Positions 3,100 through 63,445 of a stretch of 64,000 nt of DNA are shown piece after piece; the stretch's first letter is position 1, and every line of letters begins with the position of its first letter. The notes under the pieces were generated by a model. It worked only from the letters and a program-made list of their open reading frames with translations. It was not told the DNA's origin and made no database searches. This DNA comes from Lyngbya confervoides BDU141951 (lineage in GTDB: Bacteria > Cyanobacteriota > Cyanobacteriia > Thermosynechococcales > Thermosynechococcaceae). Location of the stretch: the NCBI RefSeq assembly GCF_000817775.3, contig NZ_JTHE03000091.1, forward strand, positions 62,001 to 126,000. Reading direction: 5' to 3'. Made by a program: the position numbers and the translations under genes.

Positions 3100-3663
3100 T
3101 GCAATGCCCCCCAAGCAAAATTTTGGAACTTAGTGAAACAAAGATAAGAATGCTAACGAAACCGACCCGGCACGGATTTAGACGCGCTTTTCCTCAGGCT
3201 TTGGAATCCAATATTTTTCAACCTCGAAAATACTCACTCAAGCCTGAATTGTTAGAGTTCCCTCGCAAAGCAAAAAAGACGTCTAATTCCTTTAACTTCC
3301 TAACCCACCCTACAAACGGTATTCTACAACACAAATTTAGTTCCCAACCGCCTAGGTCAGCTATCTCTGACATTATTTCGAGACGGGTAAAACCTTAACG
3401 CAATCTGTAGGGATGTATCAGGCTTGTAATGCTTCCCGGACGCCGAAGATCCAGGGTTGAGATGCTCTGTATCCGGCCCAAGCTAGCGGTCAGGGTCAAG
3501 GAGTCGACTGATTCCGATTTCCTGGGGAGATCTGGACCTTTCTGCGCCTGACGGATAAAAAACAGCTGCAAAAATTCTTACCCCAAAATCTAGATCCTGT
3601 TGAAAAAAGAGCATGGGAATAGGGTATATGTAGCCAATGAAATCCCATTTAAGGCTGGGGGCT
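3100..3663. other. Long intergenic region upstream of argZ
   Basis: About 560 bp without a convincing gene. A 107-codon forward frame (3075-3398) crosses it but lacks a good start, has basic low-complexity composition and overlaps the small reverse gene. The part nearest argZ (3540-3660) is relatively AT-rich and should hold its promoter. I looked for a GTA-N8-TAC NtcA site and found no clean one. Confidence 0.5.
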
Positions 3664-5766
3664 ATGGCGGATTCCGTGCGTATTTTAATGTGTCCACCGC
3701 ATCACTATGATGTAGATTACGTCATCAATCCATGGATGGAAGGAAACATCCATCGATCCTCTCGAGACAAGGCGGAAGCGCAGTGGGATCGTCTCTATCA
3801 AACCCTGAAAACCCTGGCGGTGGTTGATCTGGTTCAGCCTCAACCGGGTTGGCCCGACATGGTCTTTACGGCCAATGCGGGGCTGGTGCTGAGTGATGCG
3901 GTGGTGCTCAGTCGCTTTTTTCACCCCGAGCGTCAAGGCGAAGAACCCTATTTTCAACAGTGGTTTGCCGATCAAGGATTTACGGTCCACACTCTCCCCA
4001 AGAGTTTGCCCTTTGAGGGGGCAGGCGATGCGCTGTTAGATCGAGGGGGCCAGTGGCTTTGGGCAGGGTATGGATTTCGCTCTGAGCTCGATTCCCACCC
4101 CTATCTGGCGCAATGGCTCGATGTGGAGGTGCTATCGCTGCGCCTGGTAGACCAGCGCTTCTACCACCTAGATACCTGCTTTTGTCCGCTGACGGATGGC
4201 TATCTGCTCTACTATCCTCCCGCCTTTGATACCTACTCCAATCGACTGATTGAGCTACGGGTTCCAGCGGAAAAGCGGATTCCCCTCAGTGAAGTGGATG
4301 CCATTAACTTTGCCTGCAATGCGGTCAATGTTGATCAGACGGTGGTCATGAACTGCGCCAGCGATGACCTCAAGCAAACTCTGGGCGATCGCGGCTTTAC
4401 GGTAATTGAAACCCCGCTGACGGAATTTCTCAAGGCTGGGGGAGCCGCCAAATGTCTGACCCTCAAGGTTACAGAACCCCGAAGGGCAACGCCCCAGGCC
4501 TCCTCGATCCAGAGCCGAGTCATTCATCTCCAGGGCCACCTGCTAGATTCTGGGCTGGTGAATCAGGTCTTGGACACCATTGTGTCGGGGGGCGGAAGTT
4601 TTCAGGTGCTGAACTTCAACCTGGGATCTCAGCGCCAGGATATCTCCGCTGCCGATGTCAGGGTGTCTGCGCCCGACCCTAGCGTTATGGCCGATATCAT
4701 GGGCCAGCTGGTTGACCTTGGCGCCATGAGCGTTCCAGAAGAGGCACGGGCTGCCACGCTGGAGACCGTTCAGCAGCCGGGGGTGGCACCGGAGGATTTT
4801 TACGTTACCACCATCTATCCCACAGAAGTTTTGGTCCAGGACCAGTGGGTGCGCGTTCAGGCCCAGCGCATGGATGGGGCCATTGCCCTGACCTATGGCG
4901 CCGATGGCCCGACGGCCCGCTGCAAGCTGCTGCGAGATCTGCAAGTGGGGGAAGATGTGGTGGTGGGCAGTGAGGGAATTCGCACCCTGCGCAGCCGCAC
5001 GAACCTCAAGAAAAGTAGTCCTGAGGAGTTTAGCTTCATGGGAGCCGGGGTTTCGAGCGAACGGCGAGTGGAGCTGGTGGTGGACCAAATTGCCTGGGAT
5101 CTACGCCGCATCCGCGATCGCGGCGGCAAAGTTGTGGTCACCGCAGGGCCTGTGGTTATTCACACCGGGGGCGGTGAGCATTTGGGCCGATTAATCCGGG
5201 AGGGCTATGTGCATGCGCTGTTAGGGGGGAATGCGATTGCTGTCCACGACATCGAGCAGTCCATGATGGGCACCTCCCTGGGGATGGATATGCAGCGCGG
5301 CGTCTCGGTGAATGGTGGGCATCGTCACCATCTCAAGGCCATCAATGCAATTCGGCGCTGCGGCAGTATTGCCCGAGCGGTTGAGCAGGGCGTCCTCACC
5401 AGCGGCGTGATGTATGAATGCGTCAAGCAGCAGGTGCCCTTTTCCTTGGCGGGGTCCATCCGCGACGATGGCCCCCTGCCGGATACCAAGATGGACCTCA
5501 TTGCCGCTCAGCAGCACTACGCCAAGCTGATTGCAGGAGCGGATTTAATTTTGATGCTCTCCAGTATGCTGCACTCGATCGGGGTGGGCAATATGACTCC
5601 GGCGGGCGTGAAGATGGTCTGCGTGGATATTAATCCTGCTGTCGTCACCAAGCTCAGCGATCGCGGGTCCATCGAATCCATGGGTGTGGTGACGGATGTG
5701 GGCCTGTTCCTGAGTCTGCTGGTGCAGCAGCTTGCCAAACTAACGGGGCAGTACGCCCACCCCTAG
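3664..5766 (+). CDS. argZ: Arginine dihydrolase / ornithine cyclodeaminase fusion (ArgZ/AgrE)
   Basis: 700 residues from the ATG at 3664 (MADSVRILMCPPHHYDVDYV). The frame extends upstream to 3637, but the later start gives the family N-terminus and puts the key residues at the known ArgZ positions: Asn71, His168 and the catalytic Cys264 (AAKCLTLKV). The N-terminal half has the amidinotransferase-like fold and converts arginine to ornithine, CO2 and two ammonia. The C-terminal half (about 285-700; TIGR00300-type, with TAGPVVIHTGGGEHL and a NAD-binding region) corresponds to the ornithine cyclodeaminase domain of Anabaena AgrE, which makes proline. It drives the cyanobacterial ornithine-ammonia cycle and arginine catabolism, including cyanophycin breakdown. 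Confidence 0.95.
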   Translation: MADSVRILMCPPHHYDVDYVINPWMEGNIHRSSRDKAEAQWDRLYQTLKTLAVVDLVQPQPGWPDMVFTANAGLVLSDAVVLSRFFHPERQGEEPYFQQWFADQGFTVHTLPKSLPFEGAGDALLDRGGQWLWAGYGFRSELDSHPYLAQWLDVEVLSLRLVDQRFYHLDTCFCPLTDGYLLYYPPAFDTYSNRLIELRVPAEKRIPLSEVDAINFACNAVNVDQTVVMNCASDDLKQTLGDRGFTVIETPLTEFLKAGGAAKCLTLKVTEPRRATPQASSIQSRVIHLQGHLLDSGLVNQVLDTIVSGGGSFQVLNFNLGSQRQDISAADVRVSAPDPSVMADIMGQLVDLGAMSVPEEARAATLETVQQPGVAPEDFYVTTIYPTEVLVQDQWVRVQAQRMDGAIALTYGADGPTARCKLLRDLQVGEDVVVGSEGIRTLRSRTNLKKSSPEEFSFMGAGVSSERRVELVVDQIAWDLRRIRDRGGKVVVTAGPVVIHTGGGEHLGRLIREGYVHALLGGNAIAVHDIEQSMMGTSLGMDMQRGVSVNGGHRHHLKAINAIRRCGSIARAVEQGVLTSGVMYECVKQQVPFSLAGSIRDDGPLPDTKMDLIAAQQHYAKLIAGADLILMLSSMLHSIGVGNMTPAGVKMVCVDINPAVVTKLSDRGSIESMGVVTDVGLFLSLLVQQLAKLTGQYAHP

Positions 5767-5779
5767 CCTTGCCGGGGGA

Positions 5780-5834
5780 CCGTTCACCCAGGGCCACGCT
5801 CACCGCAGTTCGTGCCTGATTTCTGGGTGAACGG
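5780..5834 (+). terminator. Strong inverted repeat just after argZ, terminator-like without a T-run
   Basis: CCGTTCACCCAG at 5780-5791 is exactly complementary to CTGGGTGAACGG at 5823-5834, a 12-bp perfect stem with a 31-nt loop, 14 bp after the argZ stop. No run of T follows, so it could end transcription by another route, stabilise the mRNA 3' end, or be a protein-binding site. The CGTTCACCC segment resembles part of the glutamine (glnA) riboswitch, but the rest of that motif is not found. Confidence 0.4.
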
Positions 5835-6196
5835 CTCCCGCGCATCCTCAAATCCTTGGGTAGAGCCCACATCCCCAGCGATCGCGTCGGCCAACAGGGG
5901 CATCCCAAGCTCACGATGGAGCGGCAACGATGCCGTCAACAGCTGGCTTGGGCAACCCAACTGCCGCCATCTCTAGCAAGGCCCAAGGCGCTAACAAGAG
6001 GTGAGTTCGGCCGGGGCAAAAAGTTTTATGACAAAAAATTGACCCCTATTCGTAAAACTATGCGTCGTGTTTTAGACTGTTAGATGGCTTTTAAATGGCT
6101 TTAACGTTGCACTGCAAAGCCTTGGTTGGCAGCCACACCCCCCCCCGAAGATGACGGAGTTGGATTTGCACCTATAGCTTTATTAACGCAGCTTCT
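5835..6196. other. Intergenic region before the PAS-like gene
   Basis: About 360 bp. A 75-codon forward frame at 5856-6083 is not protein-like. The stretch 6010-6110 is AT-rich and contains a short direct repeat (GATGGCTTTTAAATGGCTTTAA), so a promoter for the light-colour gene cluster is likely here. No RNA gene is recognised. Confidence 0.4.
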
Positions 6197-6799
6197 ATGC
6201 AATCGACGTCAATTTTGTCTGGCACTTGCCATGGCGCGCTAGAGGCTGCGTTCCTGCTAGATGGGCAAGCCTGCATTCTTGGCCTGAGTTCAGCCATGGT
6301 GAGCCGGTGTGAAGAGGCAGCCCAGGAACGAATGGGTGCGCCGGTAGAGCAGATCCTTCCAGACGTCTCAAATTTCAGACAGCCCAGTGCTAAAGGGGCG
6401 AGCAGTCTTGCCTTGGGCACGATGATTCCTCTCCAGGTGGCAGGGGGAACCACCCTCCACACATTGCAAGGGACCGCTAGCTGGCCCCCTCAGGGGCGAT
6501 ATGGCGTTTTTGTGCTCTATTCCTATGATCGCTGCCCATCGGAGAAGTCAATGCTTGGGATCGATGCGGCGATCCGGTGCCAGAGGCAACAACCCGATCA
6601 ATTTGCGGAATTTTCCTCTAAAATTCGTCAATCCCTTCAATCTAAGGGGATTTTCTTCACCAATGCCCGGATGCAGCCCTCCGTGGAACGGGCCTTAGAT
6701 GTAGAACTAGTCACCGATGCCGGCGAAATTGACATTGGAGAGGTCCAAAAGCGCTTGGTGAGCATTTCTCATGTCAAGGCCCTCTCGCCGGCCTGTTGA
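6197..6799 (+). CDS. Unknown protein, possible N-terminal PAS-like region, upstream of rcaF
   Basis: 200 residues. I do not recognise a family. The first 60 residues (AFLLDGQACILGLSSAM, then helices and VEQILPD) have the look of a PAS beginning, where a strand pair precedes a helix. There are six cysteines (about positions 11, 27, 38, 117, 128 and 200), more than is usual for a protein this size. The gene ends 47 bp before rcaF on the same strand and is probably co-transcribed with rcaF-rcaC. In Fremyella the known Rca pathway consists of RcaE, RcaF and RcaC, so this would be an extra member; a role in chromatic acclimation is inference from position only. Confidence 0.6.
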   Translation: MQSTSILSGTCHGALEAAFLLDGQACILGLSSAMVSRCEEAAQERMGAPVEQILPDVSNFRQPSAKGASSLALGTMIPLQVAGGTTLHTLQGTASWPPQGRYGVFVLYSYDRCPSEKSMLGIDAAIRCQRQQPDQFAEFSSKIRQSLQSKGIFFTNARMQPSVERALDVELVTDAGEIDIGEVQKRLVSISHVKALSPAC

Positions 6800-6846
6800 T
6801 GCTGCTGTCCGTCTTCCATTTTGATTGCCGTCAAGCCTAGAGCCTC

Positions 6847-7233
6847 ATGATGACTGACACCGCCTCCAAAACTGTGCTGATTATTGATGACGAAACAACA
6901 ATCCAAATGGTGGTTCAGTACGGCCTGCAGCTGGCGGTGGACTGGACGGTGTGGACCGCCAGTTCTGGGTTAGAGGGGGTACAGGTGGCTCAGGCCCAGC
7001 AGCCGGACGTTATTTTGCTAGACGTGATGATGCCCGAGATGGATGGAATTGCGACCTTCCAGGCGCTGCAGGCTAACCCTCGCACCTGCAGTATTCCCGT
7101 CATTTTTCTCACGGCGAATGCGCACACAGCCGATCACTGGCGATCTCAATCGGTCGGCGTTACCGGCGTGATTACTAAGCCTTTTAATTCCCTACACCTC
7201 GCGGATCGAATTTCGAGCATTCTCAAGTGGTAA
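6847..7233 (+). CDS. rcaF: Single-domain response regulator RcaF-like
   Basis: 128 residues, one CheY-like receiver and nothing else: the acidic pair in VLIIDDETT, phospho-acceptor Asp59 in VILLDVMMPEMDG, the Thr in VIFLTAN and the Lys in VITKPF are all present. It ends 3 bp before the rcaC start, as expected of an operon. Fremyella RcaF is a receiver-only protein that carries phosphate from the RcaE phytochrome-class sensor to RcaC, and its gene precedes rcaC. The name rests on this size, order and the RcaC identity of the next gene; the sequence alone would only say CheY-like. No rcaE is present in the window. Confidence 0.8.
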   Translation: MMTDTASKTVLIIDDETTIQMVVQYGLQLAVDWTVWTASSGLEGVQVAQAQQPDVILLDVMMPEMDGIATFQALQANPRTCSIPVIFLTANAHTADHWRSQSVGVTGVITKPFNSLHLADRISSILKW

Positions 7234-7236
7234 GCA

Positions 7237-9126
7237 ATGCGAATTTTATTGGTTGAAGACGATGCAATCCTGGTGGACTTTCTGCGCAAAAGCTTGACGG
7301 CCCAGCGCTACATTGTGGATACCGTCGCCGATGGCGAACGCGCCTGGGACTACCTGACTCAGATTGACTACGATCTGATTTTGCTCGATGTGCTGCTGCC
7401 AAAGCTGGATGGGGTGAGCCTCTGTCGACGGCTGCGAGCGCAGCAAAACGACACGCCCATTTTAATGCTGACCGCCCAGAACCACAGTCATGCCAAGGTT
7501 CGAGGCCTGGATGCTGGGGCTGATGATTACCTGGTTAAACCCTTTGAGATTGAGGAGTTAATGGCCAGGATTCGCGCTCTGCTGCGGCGTCAGGGAAGCG
7601 ATGCATCCCCCATTTTGAGGTGTGGATCCTTGGTGATTGACCCCGCCGATTGTAGTGCCAGCTACGGGGGCTTACCGCTGGCCCTATCCTCGAAGGAATA
7701 TGGACTGCTTCAGCTGTTTCTCCACCATCCCCAGCATGTCTTTAGTATTGAGGAAATCCTGGAGAGTCTATGGTCGGCAGAGGACTATCCGGCGGAGGCG
7801 ACTGTGCGATCGCATATTCGGCGCTTGCGCCAGAAGCTGTGTGATGCCGGAGCGCCCTCGGATTTTGTGGCGAATCTCCACGGTCGCGGCTATTTTCTCA
7901 AGGCCGATCTCCCAACTCAGCAGGCCCTATCCCAGGGTTGTATGATTGACGAGCAGCAGCTCGGTCCTGGGAATGACGCCCAATCTCTCCAAAAGCAGTA
8001 TCAGATCTTCCTGGAAGAAACCTGGCAGCAATTTCAGCCCCAGGCCCTAGACTATTGGAAAGCTCTAGACCAGGAGACCCAAGCCCTGCTTCATCCCACT
8101 GGCTCATCCCCAGACAGGGAATCCAAAGAGGGAGCCTCCATCAACCTGGAAACGGCCCAGCTGTTGGCGCATCGGCTAGCTGGCACCCTGGGGCTATTTC
8201 ATCAAACAGCGGCCATGGAAGCTGCCCAATTCCTAGAATCTTGCTTTGGTCAATGGGACGCCCCGCAGGGCCAGGCCAGACCGTCGCCGCTCCAGCTTCA
8301 GCAGGCCCTAGGAACAATCCGCCAGGCCTTAGATTGTCTAGATCTCTCCTTGTCCTCCCATCCTGATTCCCAGCCGCTATTTTGGATTGTGGATCAATCC
8401 CCCCAGTTGACCCAGGCCCTGCAATCGGCAGCCCAAACCTTGCCGGTGCAACTGGCGATCGCCCCGCCCACCCTGGACCTTGGCCTTCCCCATCCCGTGG
8501 CGATTCTGCTGCCCCTGTCTTCCCCAATTGCCGCAGAAAGGACAATCGCCACTCTGCAGCAGCGATTTGATCAAGCCCTTGCTCCCCCCCTGCTCATTGG
8601 TCTAAGTGAATGCCTAACCTTTGAAGATCGTCTGCGCAGCGTGCGGTTAGGACTTCAATATGTCCTCGATCAACGACTGCCCCCTACAACCCTCTTGGAC
8701 ACCAGTCTTAAGCTCCTCCAGCCCCAAGCTCAGAAAATTCGAGCCCTCCTGGTGGATGATGATCCGCTCTGGTTACAGGCGATCACACGGCAGCTAGAAG
8801 CATTCAACTTTCAAGTGACTGCGCTGGATAATCCCCATCGACTCTGGCTGACTCTGGAGCAACATCAGCCCGACATCTTAATTCTGGATATTAAGATGCC
8901 GCAGGTGAATGGATTAGAGCTCTGTCAGACCCTGCGCAGTGACCCTCGCTGGCAGTCGTTGCCCATTATGTTTCTCTCAATTGTGGGCGACGAGAAAGTT
9001 CATCAGGATGCCTTTGCCGCTGGAGCTGATGATGTCCTATGTAAACCAATGCCGGGCAAAATGCTTGCCCAGCGCATCTTGCAGCGGCTCTCTCGCCATC
9101 AGTCCTATCTTCGTCAGTCGGCTTAG
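7237..9126 (+). CDS. rcaC: RcaC-type multidomain response regulator (REC-wHTH-HPt-REC)
   Basis: 629 residues. Order: receiver 1-120 with Asp51 (LILLDVLLPKLDG) and Lys101; OmpR/PhoB winged helix about 125-225 (ALSSKEYGLLQLFLHHP, RSHIRRLRQKL, LHGRGYFL); HPt domain about 255-375 with His312 in AHRLAGTLGLF; a segment at 380-495 that looks like a decayed receiver; and a C-terminal receiver 500-620 with Asp551 (LILDIKMPQVNG). This is the layout of Fremyella RcaC, which binds L boxes and controls red/green-light genes in type 3 chromatic acclimation. Perfect L boxes occur before pcyA and cpcB just downstream, which strongly supports the call. Phosphate is expected to come from RcaE through RcaF. Confidence 0.9.
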   Translation: MRILLVEDDAILVDFLRKSLTAQRYIVDTVADGERAWDYLTQIDYDLILLDVLLPKLDGVSLCRRLRAQQNDTPILMLTAQNHSHAKVRGLDAGADDYLVKPFEIEELMARIRALLRRQGSDASPILRCGSLVIDPADCSASYGGLPLALSSKEYGLLQLFLHHPQHVFSIEEILESLWSAEDYPAEATVRSHIRRLRQKLCDAGAPSDFVANLHGRGYFLKADLPTQQALSQGCMIDEQQLGPGNDAQSLQKQYQIFLEETWQQFQPQALDYWKALDQETQALLHPTGSSPDRESKEGASINLETAQLLAHRLAGTLGLFHQTAAMEAAQFLESCFGQWDAPQGQARPSPLQLQQALGTIRQALDCLDLSLSSHPDSQPLFWIVDQSPQLTQALQSAAQTLPVQLAIAPPTLDLGLPHPVAILLPLSSPIAAERTIATLQQRFDQALAPPLLIGLSECLTFEDRLRSVRLGLQYVLDQRLPPTTLLDTSLKLLQPQAQKIRALLVDDDPLWLQAITRQLEAFNFQVTALDNPHRLWLTLEQHQPDILILDIKMPQVNGLELCQTLRSDPRWQSLPIMFLSIVGDEKVHQDAFAAGADDVLCKPMPGKMLAQRILQRLSRHQSYLRQSA

Positions 9127-9178
9127 GATCGACTTAACGTTGCCCAGGAGCGCATCGCTCGTATCCTGTAACAGCAGC

Positions 9179-9196
9179 TTGCACAAGTTTTGCACA
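9179..9196 (+). promoter_or_regulatory. L box upstream of pcyA (RcaC-binding site)
   Basis: TTGCACAAGTTTTGCACA is an exact match to TTGCACA-N4-TTGCACA, the direct repeat bound by RcaC in Fremyella. It lies 100 bp upstream of the pcyA start and 52 bp after the rcaC stop. Activation of pcyA in red light is the expected effect. Confidence 0.85.
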
Positions 9197-9296
9197 GATC
9201 CTCCGGCACAATAGCGATTAAACACCTTAGCGATCTAACACCTTCAAAACAGCCCCGATCCCTGCGGTTTGGGCCGGGGAGTACACCTTATAAACC

Positions 9297-10046
9297 ATGG
9301 CTACCTCTTTCCAACCCTCCATTCAGAGTCGTCAACATCCCCTCATTCAACGGCTCGCAAGTTTAATTCAGGCGACCTGGAGCGAGATGCTGCAATTGAG
9401 CCCCTATCCAGCCCCTAGCGACTTGGGTTACATCGAAGGGCGGCTAGAGGATGAAGCCTTGTTTATTGAAAACTTTTGTTACCAGACCCCACAGTTTCGG
9501 AAGCTGCATCTGGAGCTGGCCAAAGTGGGCAATCACCTGGATATTCTTCACTGCGTTATGTTTCCCTATCCGCAATATGCGTTGCCGATGTTTGGCACAG
9601 ACATTGTTTGCGGGCGCGGCACCATTAGCGCTGCGATTGTTGACCTTTCCCCAATGGACCCCGACCGCCGATTGCCGGTAGGCTATCGCCACCAACTGTC
9701 AACCTTGGCCAAACTCACATTTCAAGATGTGCGAGCCCTACCGAACTGGGGTGATATTTTTTCTGACTATTGCCTTTTTGTTAAGCCCGCCCATCCCGAT
9801 GAGGAGACGGCTTTCCTGCAGCGGGTTGGGGACTATCTCCATATTCACTGCCAGCAGGCGACGGCGAGCTTGCCCGAAACCTCCGCTGCCGCTATTCAAG
9901 AGATTGAGGCGCAGCAGCGATATTACTGCGCGCAGCAGCAGAAAAACGATAAGACGCGTCGAGTGCTGGAGAAGGCCTTTGGTCCAGAATGGACGGAACG
10001 ATATATGTCCACCATGCTCTTTGACTGCGTGGGGGGGATCGCCTAA
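9297..10046 (+). CDS. pcyA: Phycocyanobilin:ferredoxin oxidoreductase
   Basis: 249 residues, normal length for PcyA. It reduces biliverdin IXalpha by four electrons from ferredoxin to phycocyanobilin, the chromophore of phycocyanin and of cyanobacterial phytochromes. The catalytic set is present with a constant offset of three from the Synechocystis numbering: Glu73 (Glu76), His85 in DILHCVMFPYP (His88) and Asp102 in FGTDIVCG (Asp105). The C-terminal LFDCVGG ending is typical. Position between rcaC and the phycocyanin operon, with an L box upstream, suggests that chromophore and apoprotein supply are switched together by light colour. Confidence 0.97.
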   Translation: MATSFQPSIQSRQHPLIQRLASLIQATWSEMLQLSPYPAPSDLGYIEGRLEDEALFIENFCYQTPQFRKLHLELAKVGNHLDILHCVMFPYPQYALPMFGTDIVCGRGTISAAIVDLSPMDPDRRLPVGYRHQLSTLAKLTFQDVRALPNWGDIFSDYCLFVKPAHPDEETAFLQRVGDYLHIHCQQATASLPETSAAAIQEIEAQQRYYCAQQQKNDKTRRVLEKAFGPEWTERYMSTMLFDCVGGIA

Positions 10047-10235
10047 AATCTCTGTCCGGCATCGGTCCCCGCATGGGTCACCCGTTAAAGTCCTGTTTGA
10101 TGCACGGGATTGACCAGGTGGACTCATTCTGGGTTCATTCAGTCTGAATACCGGTTCTTAGATCTTGGACTCTGTGTCGCCTGCGGAAAGCCAGGTCGGG
10201 CTGTTTTGGGTGTGTCTCATGCAGCCAGAGGCCTT

Positions 10236-10306
10236 GCTCGGTCAGCCATGCCCTGGCATGGTCGCCCTAGGGCGTGGCTGGGGCTGAAAACATCACGTGA
10301 CCGAGC
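10236..10306. other. Nested inverted repeats (structured element) between pcyA and cpcB
   Basis: GCTCGGTCA at 10236-10244 pairs exactly with TGACCGAGC at 10298-10306. Inside lie the near-palindrome CCATGCCCTGGCATGG and the palindrome CGCCCTAGGGCG, so the transcript could form a closed, branched fold. It may be the pcyA terminator region, although no T-run follows, or a small RNA or protein-binding element. It is 190 bp after pcyA and 70 bp before the second L box. Confidence 0.45.
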
Positions 10307-10376
10307 TTGGAAGCATGCCCCTAAGCCAGGGCTGCTTTGCATTTATTTACAAAAGTAGGCAAAAGTAAGATTTCTC

Positions 10377-10394
10377 TTGCACAAGAATTGCACA
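10377..10394 (+). promoter_or_regulatory. L box upstream of the cpc operon (RcaC-binding site)
   Basis: TTGCACAAGAATTGCACA matches TTGCACA-N4-TTGCACA with no mismatch. It lies 307 bp upstream of the cpcB start codon, leaving room for a promoter and a long 5' leader as in other cpc operons. A short direct repeat (AAAAGTAGGC/AAAAGTAAGA) precedes it. The expected role is RcaC-dependent induction of this phycocyanin in red light. Confidence 0.85.
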
Positions 10395-10701
10395 TTTTCC
10401 TTGCTTAAATGAAGTTGGTTCAAAAACCTGCTGAGCCCTGAGCTCAAAGAAGACAGGGTGCAGTCTTACTGCTCTGACAGACTGGGTTCAAGAATTTTAC
10501 CATTCTTCCGGCGAGATTGGCGGTTTTAGCCTGCTCGTCTCCCTCGGAGGTAGGGGTCGACCGGTGCTGAACTGCATTTTATGTAGTTCAGCTCTCCTGA
10601 ATAGCGGCTTATGGCATCGGTCGAGTCCAGAGCAGCATGAAAGTGGCACATGCTTCAGCAGGGGATTGAACAGCTCTTATTTAGCCTAGGAGAATTTCTG
10701 A
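10395..10701 (+). promoter_or_regulatory. cpc promoter and 5' leader region
   Basis: About 300 bp without a gene between the L box and cpcB. It should hold the core promoter and an untranslated leader; I could not choose a -10 with confidence. The ribosome-binding site is AGGAGA at 10688-10693 (CCTAGGAGAATTTCTGAATG). The 82-codon frame at 10110-10358, farther upstream, is not convincing. Confidence 0.5.
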
Positions 10702-11220
10702 ATGCTAGACGCTTTTGCTAAGGTTGTTGCCCAGGCCGATGCCCGGGGTGAATATGTCAGCGGGTCACAAATTGACGCCCTCAGCGCCATGGTTGCCGAT
10801 GGGAACAAGCGCTTGGATACCGTTAACCGCATCACTAGCAACTCTTCTACGATTGTTGCTGATGCAGCGCGTGCGCTGTTTGCCGAGCAGCCCCAGTTGA
10901 TTGCCCCCGGTGGAAATGCCTACACAAACCGCCGCATGGCCGCCTGTCTGCGGGATATGGAAATTATCCTGCGCTATGTAACCTACGCAATTTTCACCGG
11001 AGATGCGAGCGTGTTGGACGACCGCTGCCTGAACGGTCTACGCGAGACTTACCTGGCTCTCGGGACGCCCGGTAGCTCTGTGGCAAACGGGGTGCAAAAG
11101 ATGAAGGATGCTGCGATCGCGATCGCCAATGATCCTAACGGTGTGACCCGAGGAGACTGCAGCTCACTAATGGCTGAGGTTGCAGGCTACTTTGATCGCG
11201 CCGCTCAGGCGGTTGCCTAG
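10702..11220 (+). CDS. cpcB: C-phycocyanin beta subunit
   Basis: 172 residues, the standard CpcB length. Chromophore-binding Cys82 ([10 protein letters not shown]) and Cys153 (RGDCSSL) are both present, as is Asn72 in GGNAYTN, the site of gamma-N-methylation in the family. [10 protein letters not shown] and [25 protein letters not shown] are hallmark CpcB stretches; the sequence is clearly CpcB, not PecB or CpeB. It pairs with CpcA in the rods of the phycobilisome on the thylakoid surface. With two linkers and cpcD downstream and no cpcE/cpcF lyase genes, the operon has the same order as the red-light-induced cpc2 operon of Fremyella (cpcB2A2H2I2D2). Confidence 0.97.
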
Positions 11221-11302
11221 ATCCTAAACTCAGCAATCTTGCTGATCCTGCTGCCCCTTTGGCAGCATCAATCCTTTGAATGATTTTCACGAGAGTACAT
11301 CT

Positions 11303-11791
11303 ATGAAAACCCCTTTAACTGAAGCCGTAGCTGCGGCAGATTCCCAAGGCCGTTTCTTGAGCACCACTGAACAGCAGGTTGCCTTTGGTCGTTTTCGTCA
11401 GGCTGCTTCGGGTCTGGAAGCGGCAAAGGCCCTCTCTAGCAAGGCCAATTCCTTGGCAGAGGGTGCAGCCAACGCAGTTTACCAGAAGTTCCCCTTTACC
11501 ACACAGATGTCCGGGTCAAACTATGCCTCTACCCCGGAAGGCAAAGCTAAGTGTGTGCGGGACATTGGTTACTACCTGCGGATGGTGACCTACTGTCTGA
11601 TTGTGGGTGGCACTGGTCCCATGGACGACTATCTCATCTCAGGTCTAGCCGAGATCAATAGCACCTTTGAGCTCTCTCCTAGCTGGTACGTGGAAGCCCT
11701 GAAGCATATCAAGGCAAACCATGGCCTCTCCGGTGATGCAGCGGTGGAAGCCAATGCCTACATTGACTATGCCATTAATGCGCTGAGCTAA
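11303..11791 (+). CDS. cpcA: C-phycocyanin alpha subunit
   Basis: 162 residues from the ATG at 11303 ([20 protein letters not shown]), the universal CpcA beginning; the frame's upstream extension to 11276 is not part of it. Cys83 in [13 protein letters not shown] (Cys84 in usual numbering) binds phycocyanobilin through the CpcE/CpcF lyase, whose genes are not in this window. [21 protein letters not shown] is the usual C-terminal region. It lies 82 bp after cpcB and is followed by a strong hairpin that probably sets the subunit-to-linker ratio. Confidence 0.97.
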
Positions 11792-11803
11792 CTGCTTCCT
11801 TGA

Positions 11804-11865
11804 GCCAGATATGTTTCTCGCTGCGACCAAAGCGTTGCGGAGGTGGGAAATATGTCTGGCTTTTT
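11804..11865 (+). terminator. Intercistronic attenuator hairpin between cpcA and the linker genes
   Basis: GCCAGATATGTTTC at 11804-11817 pairs with GAAATATGTCTGGC at 11847-11860, a 14-bp stem with two G-U pairs, followed directly by TTTTT (11861-11865). This is a rho-independent-like structure placed inside the operon. A partial stop here would give many cpcBA transcripts and few reaching the linkers, matching the need for more subunits than linkers. Confidence 0.75.
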
Positions 11866-11892
11866 AGTTAGATCGATGTTTAGGAGAATCCT

Positions 11893-12711
11893 ATGACCAG
11901 TCTTGCCTCAGCTATGCAGCTTGGTTTTGAAGCTGTTAATAATTGCGATCCCGTTGAGCTGCGATCCCACGGTAGTGAGGAGGATGTTCGGCGGGTGATT
12001 TGGGCCGCCTATCGTCAGGTGTTTGGAAATGACCACATTTTAGAAGCGGAGCGGCTTTCGAGTGCGGAGTCTCTTCTGAAGCAGGGCGTGATCAACGTCC
12101 GGGAGTTTGTCCGGGCCCTCGGTCAGTCCGAGCTGTATCGCCAGAAGTTTTTTTATCCCAATCCCCAGGTGCGATTTATTGAGTTAAATTTCAAGCACTT
12201 TTTAGGGCGGGCTCCCTACGATGAGGCTGAAATCACGGAGCATGTGAATCTCTACACCCAGCAGGGACTTGAAGCGGAAATCAATTCGTATTTGGACTCC
12301 TCAGAGTATCTGAGTCAGTTCGGCGATGCTATTGTGCCCTACTGCCGCGGATTTAGCACCCAGCGGTCCCAGAAAACCGTCGGGTTTAATCGGATGTTTC
12401 AGCTGTATCGGGGTGCTGCCAGCAGCGATCGCGCCCGTGGTGGCGCCCAGGGGGCTACCTTAACCCGTGAGCTCGCGCTGAACCTTGCTAATCCTATTCA
12501 AACGCCGGGATTTGGTCGGAAATTAGCTGGTACAGCCCAAGGCGATCGTAACCAGCGGTTTAAAATTCGCGTTATGCAAGCTGCCAGCAATCGCACTCCG
12601 CAAATTCGGCGCGGCATGAGCGAATATACCGTTGCCTACGAACAGCTTTCGGCAGCGCTTCAGCGCTTTAACCAGCAGGGTAAAAAAGTCATTGACATCG
12701 CCCCTGCATAA
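11893..12711 (+). CDS. cpcC: Phycobilisome rod linker polypeptide, first copy (CpcH2-like)
   Basis: 272 residues. A PBS-linker domain covers about 15-150 ([58 protein letters not shown], and [11 protein letters not shown] just after). A C-terminal CpcD-like domain covers about 218-272 ([20 protein letters not shown]). It joins phycocyanin hexamers in the rod and tunes their absorption. Ribosome-binding site TAGGAGAA lies 7 bp before the ATG. By operon position it matches CpcH2 of the Fremyella inducible phycocyanin operon. It is a diverged paralogue of the next gene. Confidence 0.93.
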
Positions 12712-12758
12712 CCCAATTCCCGACTGATATCGTTACTTTAAATCAGGAGATTCACTCA

Positions 12759-13625
12759 GTGGCAATTACTACAGCAGCAACTCGACTGGGGACTGAACCC
12801 TACAGCGAGAGCTCCCCGATAGAGCTTCGCTCGAACTGGAGTTCTGAGGACGCGCAACAGGTCATTCGGGCGGTTTATCGCCAGGTTCTGGGGAATGATT
12901 ATCTCATGGCCTCAGAGCGTCTGGTGAGCCTGGAATCTCTGCTATGCCAAGGAAGCCTTTCGGTGCGCGAGTTCGTCCGGGCTGTTGCGAAATCTGATTT
13001 ATACAAGAATAAATTTCTGTTTCCCCATTTTCAAACTCGTGTTATTGAACTCAACTTTAAGCATCTCCTCGGTCGTGCCCCCTACGATGAGGCAGAGGTG
13101 ATTGAGCATCTAGATCGCTATCAAAATGAGGGCTATGAAGCCGACATTGATTCCTACATCGACTCAGAGGAATATAATCTAAACTTTGGGGATAATATTG
13201 TTCCCTATTATCGGGGGTTTAGTACGCAAACCAGTCAAAAAATCGCTGGTTTCCCCAATATGTTCCAGCTATATCGTGGATATGCCACGAGCGATCGCGC
13301 TCAGATTGGTCAGAAAAGCTCCCGCCTGGCGCGAGACTTGGCGGGCAATCGCGTTTCTGCAGTAATCGGCATGGCTGGGAATAATGACGGCTGGGCCTAT
13401 CAAGAATCCCTGAAGGGGACCACGCCAGGGAAGGCCTTTGCTCGGTCCACCTCAGATGATCCAGGTCGCCTGTATCGCATTGAGGTGGCCTGTATGAATC
13501 TCCCGCGCTATCCCAAGGTGCGTCGGATTAATCGGGCCTTTATTGTTCCCTATTCTGAGTTAAGCAGCACCCTACAGCGGGTTCAGAAGATGGGGGGAAA
13601 AGTCGCTAGCATTACTCAGGCCTAG
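12759..13625 (+). CDS. cpcC: Phycobilisome rod linker polypeptide, second copy (CpcC/CpcI2-like)
   Basis: 288 residues from GTG at 12759, preceded by [32 protein letters not shown] is the standard start of the 30-33 kDa CpcC linker. The PBS-linker domain follows ([61 protein letters not shown]), then a CpcD-like domain at about 235-288 ([21 protein letters not shown]). It attaches outer phycocyanin discs to the rod. It is closer to the widespread CpcC type than its upstream neighbour, so the pair probably places successive hexamers. Confidence 0.94.
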
Positions 13626-13670
13626 GTTTCTATTGTTCTGGTTCTAAACGTAAATCTCTAAGGAGGTGCC

Positions 13671-13952
13671 ATGCTGTCTCCAGCAGCTTTTTATCGAGGA
13701 TCGAGTACAACCGTCGGCAATCGCATGTACGTCTATGAAGTCAGTGGCTTAGGGAATTACGATCCTTCCCAGGTTCAGGGCTACTCCATTCGCGAGAGTG
13801 GGACGTGCTATGTTCAGGTTCCCTATTCTCAGATGAATCAGACCATGCGACGGCTACAGAAACTCGGGGGCAAAATTGTTTCTATTCAGCCCCTTGAGTC
13901 GTTTCAGCCCTCTCAGGCAGGTTCGGGCAAGACAGAGGAAGTCCAAGCCTAG
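13671..13952 (+). CDS. cpcD: Phycobilisome rod-capping linker CpcD
   Basis: 93 residues with a perfect Shine-Dalgarno (AAGGAGGTG) before the ATG. The CpcD fold spans residues about 18-70 (RMYVYEVSGLGNYDP, then CYVQVPYSQMNQTMRRLQKLGGKIVSI). The domain matches the C-termini of the two upstream linkers. CpcD caps the distal end of rods and limits their length. The C-terminal 20 residues are a Ser/Gln/Glu-rich tail. A terminator hairpin follows, so cpcD closes the operon. Confidence 0.94.
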   Translation: MLSPAAFYRGSSTTVGNRMYVYEVSGLGNYDPSQVQGYSIRESGTCYVQVPYSQMNQTMRRLQKLGGKIVSIQPLESFQPSQAGSGKTEEVQA

Positions 13953-14121: not shown

Positions 14122-14610
14122 GTGTTGTCTGTTTTTGATCAGCCCGACGTCATTATCCATAGCCAGCGCCTTCTGCGTAGCTTTGAGCATTGGACCGGGC
14201 AATCTCTCCTGGATGGCCCGGTCCTGAACCACGACCCCCGTGATCAGGCAGAGGCGCTGTTTAAGGCCCCCTTTGCAGTGGTCTCCCACGGTACTCAGGC
14301 CGACCCCGTTTTTAACTACGGCAATCAAATGGCTCTGGACCTATGGGAATTTGACTGGGAAACCTTTACCCAATTGCCCTCTCGACGATCGGCTGAGGCG
14401 GTGGCCCAAGCTGAGCGCGATCGCCTGCTGGCTGAGGCTAGGCAAAAGGGATATATCCGCAACTACCAGGGCGTGCGGATATCCAGAACTGGCCAGCGTT
14501 TCTGGATTGAGCAGGTCATTCTTTGGGAGATTCTCGACGAAGGGGGGCAATACCGGGGACAGGCCGCCACCTTCAAAACCTGGAGGCCCGTTTCTCCCTC
14601 CTCCCTCTGA
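14122..14610 (+). CDS. MEKHLA domain-containing protein
   Basis: 162 residues from GTG at 14122, with GGAGG upstream. The whole protein fits the MEKHLA family: HSQRLLRSFEHWTGQSLL at the start, DPVFNYGNQMALDLWEFDWETFTQLPSR in the middle and YQGVRISRTGQRFWIEQVILWEILDE at the end. The domain is related to PAS folds and occurs alone in cyanobacteria and at the C-terminus of plant HD-ZIP III regulators; its ligand is not known. It starts only 17 bp past the cpc terminator, so some read-through expression is possible. Confidence 0.85.
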   Translation: MLSVFDQPDVIIHSQRLLRSFEHWTGQSLLDGPVLNHDPRDQAEALFKAPFAVVSHGTQADPVFNYGNQMALDLWEFDWETFTQLPSRRSAEAVAQAERDRLLAEARQKGYIRNYQGVRISRTGQRFWIEQVILWEILDEGGQYRGQAATFKTWRPVSPSSL

Positions 14611-61411: not shown

Positions 61412-63445
61412 TCATGGATAAATAGAGTCCAGAACTTCCACAAGCACAATCTTGTCAAGACGAGGATCCACGTCCCGAACTTTAACCTGCAGGGCCTCTC
61501 CGAGATGGGGAATCCGATTAAAGCGCATGGGCAACTCCAACCCCAAATCTTCCAGCAAAACCAGGGCAAGGTTTTCATGCTCCCGTAGCCAGCGCAAAAC
61601 CAGTGCCCGCCAAATTTCATCCTTCTGCTGGCGCAGAAATTCTAAACTCCAGTAGCGGTTAGTTTGACGCTCCACCAACGCGGACTCGTAGGCAACGGGG
61701 GCTACCGTACTCAGGAGCTGCGTTAAATCCAGCTCGCTGTAGGGGAGATCGTCCCCCCGCAGATGGGCCTTAATCTGAAGATGCGCCACCAAATCCGCAT
61801 AGCGACGAATTGGGGAAGTGACCTGGCAGTAATGCTCCAGACCCAAACTAGAGTGACGTTGAGGGGTGGTGCTCACCTCGCTGCGCGGCATGCAGCGACG
61901 AATGGCGCAGGCTCGAACTGGACCGGGGGACAATTGCAGCAGTTCTTCCTCCGTGGGGAGATCGGGTTGAGCTTGATGCCGGAATGGCAGGGGAACCCCG
62001 TGGGCAAATCCATAGGTGGCAGCCACCTCCCCCGCCAGAATCATCATCTCTGCCACCAGTTCCCGCGACATGGAATTGGGCAACAGGTCAATGGTGACCG
62101 TTTCGCCCTGCACCTTGATAGAGGGTTCGGGAAGCTGAATCTGAATTGCGCCCTGGCGAGTACGCCACTGCTGACGAATTTTTGCCCATTTGGCTAAGCT
62201 CATCAGCTCGGATTCTGCCTGCACTCCTAGCTCTAGCATTTCGTCAACATCTTCGTAGGTGAGCCGGTAGGTGGGAGTCACCTGACTGGTGCAGATTTCA
62301 TAGGAGTCTAGGGATCCCTCCTGAGTCAAAAGAATGCCAAAGCTCAGGGCGCAGCAACAGTTCCCCTGGGTAAGACTCATCGGCCCGGTGGACAGCTCCA
62401 GGGGAAACATCGGAATCATGCCCGTCGGTAAATATACTGTGGTGGTGCGCCGCTGGGCCTCCCGGTCCAGATCATCGCCGGGCACAACCCAACGACTGGG
62501 ATCAGCAATGTGAACCCAGATGCGCTCGCGACCGTCGTCTAAAAATTCCAGGCTTAACCCATCATCAATTTCTGCTGTACTTTCGTCGTCAATGGTGTAG
62601 ACCTTGAGGTGGGTCAGATCGCGGCGATCGCGATCTTGATCGGGGGGTGGCATGTCTAAATATTGCTCTGCTGCAAGCGACACCTGAGGCGGGAACTGAT
62701 CGGCCATATTGCGCCGCCGTAGGAACAAGTTTTCATGTTTCTCCCATAACCCTAGCGCGACAAGCAGGTCAAACGCACCCACTGGTGTTTTTTCAAAATC
62801 CGTATGGCTGAGAATCTCGCGTGCCTGGAGACGACTCTTGGACTCTTCTCCAAACAGCGCGAAGTTTTCCACAGCACTGAGATAGACCCGATCGCTCGGC
62901 GTCCAGTCCACCGAGTCACCGGCAATGGCAGCTTGCAAGCCGTTGTAAAACCGCTGCTGCTGCTGCTCTCGCTCCGCCTCCCGCTTGATCTGATGCTGAA
63001 TATCTGCCACTTGGCTGACGGAACGCGGCTCAAAGCGATCGCCCTTCCGCTTGAAAAAAACCTTGTCATCGGTGAGCAGACAAAAGGAGGCATAGCAGAG
63101 CACCGGGGACTGCTCTGAAAACAATAGCAGCGATAAATCCTCAGCAGTGGTCGAGGTCTGCTCCTCCGTCAGCAGTTCCCAAGCCACCTCAAGACTAGTG
63201 GGATCAAGGTGCTGCTCCACGGCAGCTCGAAACTGAGCAACCTCCTCTGGAGCGTAGGTTTGCCCAGAAACCGAGTAACTGACCTGGCGGGGATGCACCA
63301 CATGGGACTGCCCAGATGCATCAATGACAACCCAATGCTTTTTCCCTTCGGGACGATCGATTACCCCAATTCGCCGCCCTTCCATTCCCTGTGTGGCACT
63401 CTCTCCCTGTAGCCGAAACTCAACTATTGTGCCTTTTTCAAACAA
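61412..63445 (-). CDS. rnb: RNase II/RNase R-type exoribonuclease
   Basis: 677 residues. An N-terminal region of about 250 residues without clear cold-shock motifs is followed by the RNB catalytic domain: VYTIDDESTAEIDDGLSLEF with the metal-binding Asp cluster, WVHIADPSRWV, VYLPTGMIPMFPLELS and YCQVTSPIRRYADLVAHLQIKA. A C-terminal S1-like segment (GEALQVKVRDVDPRLDKIVLVEVL) closes the protein. It degrades RNA from the 3' end. It lies 56 bp downstream of rpsR on the same strand, an arrangement with rpmG-rpsR seen in many cyanobacteria. Confidence 0.92.
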   Translation of the reverse strand: MFEKGTIVEFRLQGESATQGMEGRRIGVIDRPEGKKHWVVIDASGQSHVVHPRQVSYSVSGQTYAPEEVAQFRAAVEQHLDPTSLEVAWELLTEEQTSTTAEDLSLLLFSEQSPVLCYASFCLLTDDKVFFKRKGDRFEPRSVSQVADIQHQIKREAEREQQQQRFYNGLQAAIAGDSVDWTPSDRVYLSAVENFALFGEESKSRLQAREILSHTDFEKTPVGAFDLLVALGLWEKHENLFLRRRNMADQFPPQVSLAAEQYLDMPPPDQDRDRRDLTHLKVYTIDDESTAEIDDGLSLEFLDDGRERIWVHIADPSRWVVPGDDLDREAQRRTTTVYLPTGMIPMFPLELSTGPMSLTQGNCCCALSFGILLTQEGSLDSYEICTSQVTPTYRLTYEDVDEMLELGVQAESELMSLAKWAKIRQQWRTRQGAIQIQLPEPSIKVQGETVTIDLLPNSMSRELVAEMMILAGEVAATYGFAHGVPLPFRHQAQPDLPTEEELLQLSPGPVRACAIRRCMPRSEVSTTPQRHSSLGLEHYCQVTSPIRRYADLVAHLQIKAHLRGDDLPYSELDLTQLLSTVAPVAYESALVERQTNRYWSLEFLRQQKDEIWRALVLRWLREHENLALVLLEDLGLELPMRFNRIPHLGEALQVKVRDVDPRLDKIVLVEVLDSIYP

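Follow-up and report, generated by a model that had tools for sequence, protein, structure and literature searches.

The stretch of 64,000 nucleotides analysed here (the window) derives from Lyngbya confervoides BDU141951 (assembly GCF_000817775.3, contig NZ_JTHE03000091.1, forward strand, positions 62,001 to 126,000) and contains a gene cluster which is probably the output half of a type 3 chromatic acclimation (CA3) system whose sensor has been lost, with the regulator RcaC most likely still acting on phosphate received from elsewhere. In CA3, RcaE responds to red light by phosphorylating RcaC via RcaF, and pcyA and cpc2 are activated by RcaC through their L boxes (PMC8256508). Regarding the components of CA3, RcaF, RcaC with D51, H312, D551 and its DNA-binding domain, and L boxes at pcyA and cpc2 were present in the cluster, whereas whole-genome searches yielded neither an RcaE histidine kinase nor phycoerythrin (PE) and phycoerythrobilin (PEB) synthesis as the green-light arm. 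The genome comprises 4.85 Mb in 122 contigs, with a completeness estimate of 100%. (Note that codes of the form G### denote other genomes compared, L### loci fetched from genomes and C## contigs of the window's genome.) The features of the cluster, in window coordinates, are as follows.

6197-6799, forward strand: probable rcaE remnant, an open reading frame (ORF) of 200 amino acids (aa), assessed by tblastn, hidden Markov model (HMM) scores against shuffles, segment tests and whole-genome searches.
6847-7233, forward strand: rcaF, a receiver-only response regulator (Pfam PF00072; 54-67% identity to RcaF proteins adjoining RcaE).
7237-9126, forward strand: rcaC, encoding receiver, OmpR DNA-binding domain, His domain and receiver (D51, H312, D551; recognition helix TVRSHIRRLRQKL intact).
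9179-9196, forward strand: perfect L box before pcyA (TTGCACA-N4-TTGCACA; other genomes have a similar site, with similar sequence downstream of it, in front of pcyA).
9297-10046, forward strand: pcyA, phycocyanobilin:ferredoxin oxidoreductase (NCBIfam NF002760, 349 bits, cutoff 206).
10377-10394, forward strand: perfect L box before cpcB, with TTGCTTAAAT after it, spaced as in genomes that have RcaE.
10702-11220, forward strand: cpcB, phycocyanin beta subunit (TIGR01339, 324 bits, cutoff 279).
11303-11791, forward strand: cpcA, phycocyanin alpha subunit (TIGR01338, 298 bits, cutoff 269).
11893-12711, forward strand: phycocyanin rod linker 1 (PF00427; orthologs in other cpc2 operons).
12759-13625, forward strand: phycocyanin rod linker 2 (PF00427; orthologs in other cpc2 operons).
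13671-13952, forward strand: cpcD, rod-capping linker (PF01383; NF058509, 91.6 bits, cutoff 80).

All genes from rcaF to cpcD (6847-13952) share a single orientation. A preliminary description of the window had proposed these gene identities and their order, and the family models agree with it for every gene; those matching RcaC comprise two receivers and an OmpR-type DNA-binding domain. The three residues it had named in RcaC (Asp51, His312 and Asp551) are all present and align with those of more than 20 orthologs, and its two perfect RcaC sites are the L boxes listed above. Its assignment of a cpc2-like operon likewise holds, as the order cpcB-cpcA-linker-linker-cpcD lies behind an L box and a TTGCTT-AAT element and the rod linkers are orthologous to those of other cpc2 operons.

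The same description had placed rcaE and phycoerythrin outside the window, which is correct, and the genome as a whole is also without both. It had, moreover, tied its reading of a working chromatic acclimation cluster to the existence of an RcaE-type sensor in the genome. No intact RcaE was detected in the whole-genome profile search, in which the highest score was 291 bits, from a PAS-kinase without GAF, as compared with 946-1378 bits for whole true orthologs. None of the GAF proteins of the genome was RcaE-like, and none had an RcaE/CcaS-like Cys-Leu site. The cluster is thus an output module without a sensor rather than the working chromatic acclimation cluster of that reading, RcaE, PE, pebA and pebB all being missing. 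Two other proteins were considered as RcaE and rejected, namely a DXCF-type hybrid on C45 and a Cys-Met GAF kinase at C88:125323, which scored 121 and 84 bits, respectively, with the RcaE-GAF model, as compared with at least 343 bits for true RcaE. (The 1401-aa frame on C45 (L031) combines an N-terminal OmpR-type regulator, PAS domains, a cyanobacteriochrome-like GAF (DPCF, Cys-Tyr site) and a kinase, and is possibly a blue/green sensor.)

Directly upstream of rcaF, in the usual place of rcaE, lies the ORF at 6197-6799, which is very likely a decayed, internally deleted rcaE. It had no Pfam match, but its final third was matched by RcaE queries in a tblastn search against the window, and it scored 19.8 bits with the RcaE HMM, the best of 2000 shuffles reaching 4.3. 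Residues 121-156 (containing RCQRQQPDQFAEFSSKIRQSLQSKGIF) resemble the part of RcaE immediately N-terminal to the GAF domain, and residues 156-200 (containing RMQPSVERALD) resemble part of the PAS domain that follows GAF; the two segments are collinear, and each scored above all 3000 of its own shuffles. Between them, about 250 residues of RcaE are missing, including the bilin cysteine and the rest of the GAF core, and the part of RcaE after the second segment is missing as well, including the whole histidine kinase, so that the regions of both the GAF Cys-Leu chromophore site and the HELRT kinase box are absent. An assembly error is an unlikely source of this structure, because the surviving segments have themselves diverged. 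An N-terminal PAS domain in the ORF was considered and found to be unsupported, as residues 1-120 gave no HMM score.

It is improbable that this ORF is instead an unrelated small gene and that rcaE was lost cleanly, in which case the cluster would be sensorless all the same. That the first 120 residues match nothing, that the likeness to RcaE spans just about 80 residues, and that the frame is still open with a codon-position GC content like that of neighbouring genes would fit such a gene, but two collinear segments that outscore every shuffle, in the usual position of rcaE, would not. In searches of the ORF against 54 whole genomes, rcaE was the top match in 18, with individually weak E-values, and none of them yielded a stand-alone homolog of about the same length, which also speaks for a remnant of rcaE.

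The loss of the sensor is accompanied by that of the green arm. A whole-genome PF05996 search identified the pcyA of the window as the sole bilin reductase, and pebA and pebB, which the preliminary description had suggested looking for elsewhere in the genome, are therefore absent. The highest score with the CpeB model across the genome was 217 bits, which is below the cutoff of 275 and below the 313-342 bits of PE-bearing genomes, and the PF00502 matches in the genome were of cpc or apc type or unclassified. A working CA3-type system, in which RcaE would be encoded on a plasmid or in a part of the genome missing from the assembly and the cluster would continue to respond to red and green light, is accordingly very improbable. 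The division of the genome over 122 contigs and the few genomes in which rcaE and rcaC lie apart (L197, L198) leave some room for it; however, RcaE is absent from a genome with a completeness estimate of 100%, a remnant of rcaE occupies the ancestral location, and there is no PE or PEB synthesis for such a system to switch to.

Three cpcBA pairs were found in the genome, on C59, on C70 and in the window. The pair on C59 has cpcE and cpcF downstream and cpcG about 4 kb further, without rod linkers, whereas the one on C70 has two rod linkers and a divergent cpcG. Regulation of the window operon would therefore act on the rod linkers and the outer phycocyanin, and regulation of pcyA on the supply of bilin. 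The subunits encoded on C70 did not support a reading of that operon as the low-sulphur cpc3 type, the second linker alone being sulphur-poor. C88 (L026 7192-11356) carries two distant phycobilisome-domain proteins, possibly bilin-associated globin-like relatives, together with two family-unassigned proteins and a ferredoxin-like protein.

Regarding the arrangement in other organisms, at least 13 other genomes have rcaE-rcaF-rcaC-pcyA-(L box)-cpc2 as an uninterrupted block (among them L080, L081, L184, L187, L188, L190, L192, L196, L200 and L202), and rcaE was located directly 5' of rcaF in about 28 of the 31 RcaE loci examined. The gene 5' of rcaF in those blocks is a true RcaE, its GAF domain matching the solved RcaE chain 7ckv with an E-value of 1.4e-79. 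Within the alignment of 31 RcaE orthologs the Cys-Leu chromophore motif occurred in all and the HELRT kinase box in 30, with HDVRT in L156. The compact module which the preliminary description had regarded as special is therefore physically linked as claimed, but is the normal CA3 arrangement from rcaF to cpc2. What is unusual here is that the first gene, rcaE, is missing and that PE and PEB synthesis are absent as well, not the linkage.

The L boxes are in much better condition than the sensor gene. In a scan of the whole genome the two sites at pcyA and cpcB were the only ones with 0 or 1 mismatch, and the further L boxes sought elsewhere in the genome were thus not found; from base composition, 0.0004 perfect L boxes would be expected per 64 kb and 0.03 per genome, as compared with the two observed. 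(The alternative pattern TTGTCA-N4-TTGTCA was discarded, as it had no occurrence; the true L box is TTGCACA-N4-TTGCACA.) Among about 40 L-box promoters compared, the region downstream of the cpc L box was also conserved, with TTGCTT-AAT at fixed spacing and then GTTCAAAA. In the window, TTGCTTAAAT and GGTTCAAAA occupy the positions of these two elements, and because conservation extends past the L box, the cpc promoter is a complete RcaC-type promoter rather than a mere word match.

The regulators are represented by full reading frames, with an unchanged recognition helix in RcaC and 54 of the 61 conserved positions in RcaF, including the phosphorylation-site motif. Several observations nevertheless weigh against a relay that is still in use. 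The window RcaC retains 49/57, 38/48 (DNA-binding), 13/20 and 49/58 conserved positions in its four domains, whereas sensor-bearing clusters have a median of roughly 98% or higher, and its branch is the longest (2.44) in a tree of 34 RcaC proteins, in which it was not placed with support; RcaF, too, falls short of full conservation by seven positions. This divergence fits relaxed constraint as well as rewiring. It is not proof of decay, because L139, from an RcaE-bearing genome, is nearly as diverged. Judged from their sequences, RcaF and RcaC are probably under altered constraint, that is, still functional but no longer tuned to RcaE.

The long branch and lowered conservation of RcaC would also be expected from passive decay, in which the relay has been drifting since RcaE and PE were lost, RcaF and RcaC are useless, transcription of pcyA and cpc2 is basal, and the L boxes persist solely due to a recent loss or an overlap with core promoter elements. 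A relative, G008, appears to be further along this path: it has no RcaE, neither D51 nor D551 is present in its RcaC, and the box before cpcB contains two mismatches. However, the remnant of rcaE is almost unrecognisable, whereas rcaF and rcaC have full frames, all phospho-acceptors and the unchanged helix, and both 14-base L-box sites are perfect; since an equal neutral time should also have damaged rcaF, rcaC and the L boxes, passive loss of the whole relay is disfavoured and is considered about half as likely as an RcaC acting with phosphate from another source.

For an RcaC that has remained in use, the following course of events would account for the cluster. An ancestor would have possessed the usual rcaE-rcaF-rcaC-pcyA-cpc2 block; in a lineage now without phycoerythrin and PEB synthesis, rcaE would have shed its GAF core and kinase, leaving the 200-aa remnant. 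RcaF, RcaC and the two RcaC-type promoters are still intact in sequence. RcaC most likely still binds both L boxes and switches on pcyA together with the cpc2 operon, which would raise phycocyanobilin supply in step with the peripheral discs of phycocyanin. Its phosphate may come from another kinase that is not a red/green photoreceptor, or RcaC may rest at an unregulated intermediate level of phosphorylation. One candidate kinase for the RcaF-RcaC relay is an 898-aa fusion at C63:25595-28291 (L215 5595-8291), in which an RcaC-like chain (receiver, OmpR DNA-binding domain, His domain, receiver) is joined to an RcaE-like PAS-histidine kinase, and which is the best RcaE-kinase match in the genome (the 291-bit hit above). 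As a tentative extension, the relay may in several PE-less lineages have been uncoupled from its photoreceptor and have come under a different kinase. Redox state, light intensity, nutrients or some other cue would then govern both the making of bilins and the growth of phycocyanin rods.

The persistence of RcaC and L boxes without phycoerythrin is not confined to L. confervoides. RcaC-type genes occur together with L boxes, at or close to cpc operons, in a total of 13 genomes without CpeB: that of the window, seven in which the rcaE gene is kept (G037, G149, G188, G210, G227, G239 and G275), and G127, G203, G219, G230 and G258. The seven have L boxes and one bilin reductase but no phycoerythrin, and the rcaE of G188 is shortened, with an altered kinase box. 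G203, which has no PE, contains a piece of rcaE with a frameshift immediately 5' of rcaF. In G258, also without PE, two short scraps of rcaE directly precede rcaC; rcaF has been lost and the L box is perfect. The idea that a short RcaC signals loss of the sensor was dropped, as short forms also adjoin intact RcaE (L194, L195, L196, L199, L200). G008 (L218) has kept PE but has no RcaE; its RcaC-like protein is encoded beside cpcBA (rcaC at 5987-7897) with D51 replaced by Ala and D551 by Asn, the L-like box before cpcB lies at 5812, and the genome looks like a different route of loss. In G003 (L213), which has CpeB and no RcaE, a short RcaC gene (7475-9097) is divergent from pcyA (9357-10172), and an L box with one mismatch lies close to the start of pcyA. 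In a survey of 65 genomes, RcaE was reported solely from those able to make phycoerythrobilin, 27 out of 27 (PMC9415938). Set against that figure, the gene content of the seven PE-less rcaE genomes in the larger sample compared here shows that RcaE and phycoerythrobilin synthesis can separate.

Chromatic acclimation is usually presented as a single package of sensor, relay and pigment genes. In the 13 genomes, several of which have a decayed or missing sensor, RcaC-type genes and phycocyanin-operon L boxes have outlasted phycoerythrin. Such genomes are natural sensor deletions, in which the use of RcaC without RcaE, the source of its phosphate and the order in which a colour-sensing circuit breaks down can be tested.

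Regarding the neighbourhood of the cluster, a MEKHLA-domain (PAS-related) protein is encoded directly 3' of cpcD on the same strand (14122-14610), and a 709-aa ORF 5' of the rcaE remnant (3637-5766) has, from its sequence only, the look of an arginine-dihydrolase/ornithine cyclodeaminase-type (AgrE/ArgZ-like) protein.

In comparison with known systems, control by CcaS-CcaR (CA1/CA7) resembles the present case in that green/red cyanobacteriochrome control of phycobilisome genes is possible without PE, but its sensor and regulator differ from those of the window. The CA3 systems of Fremyella diplosiphon and Synechococcus PCC 7335 share with the window RcaF, the architecture and phospho-residues of RcaC, the L boxes before pcyA and cpc2 and the composition of the red-light cpc2 operon, whereas the window has no functional RcaE, PE or pebA/pebB and has L boxes at pcyA and cpc2 only. 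The contiguous blocks L080, L081, L187, L190 and L202 have the same rcaF-to-cpcD order and promoter layout but, unlike the window, start with an intact RcaE (GAF Cys-Leu, HELRT), and most are PE-bearing. The seven rcaE-keeping genomes are like the window in having RcaC, L box and cpc2 without CpeB or PebAB, and differ in the sensor gene, which makes a phycocyanin-only red/green response possible. G203 and G258 differ from the window in their shorter RcaC form, and G203 also in a 1-mismatch L box at the operon, but share with it the lack of PE, an rcaE in fragments, and the retention, next to cpc genes, of rcaC and an L box, exact or nearly so.

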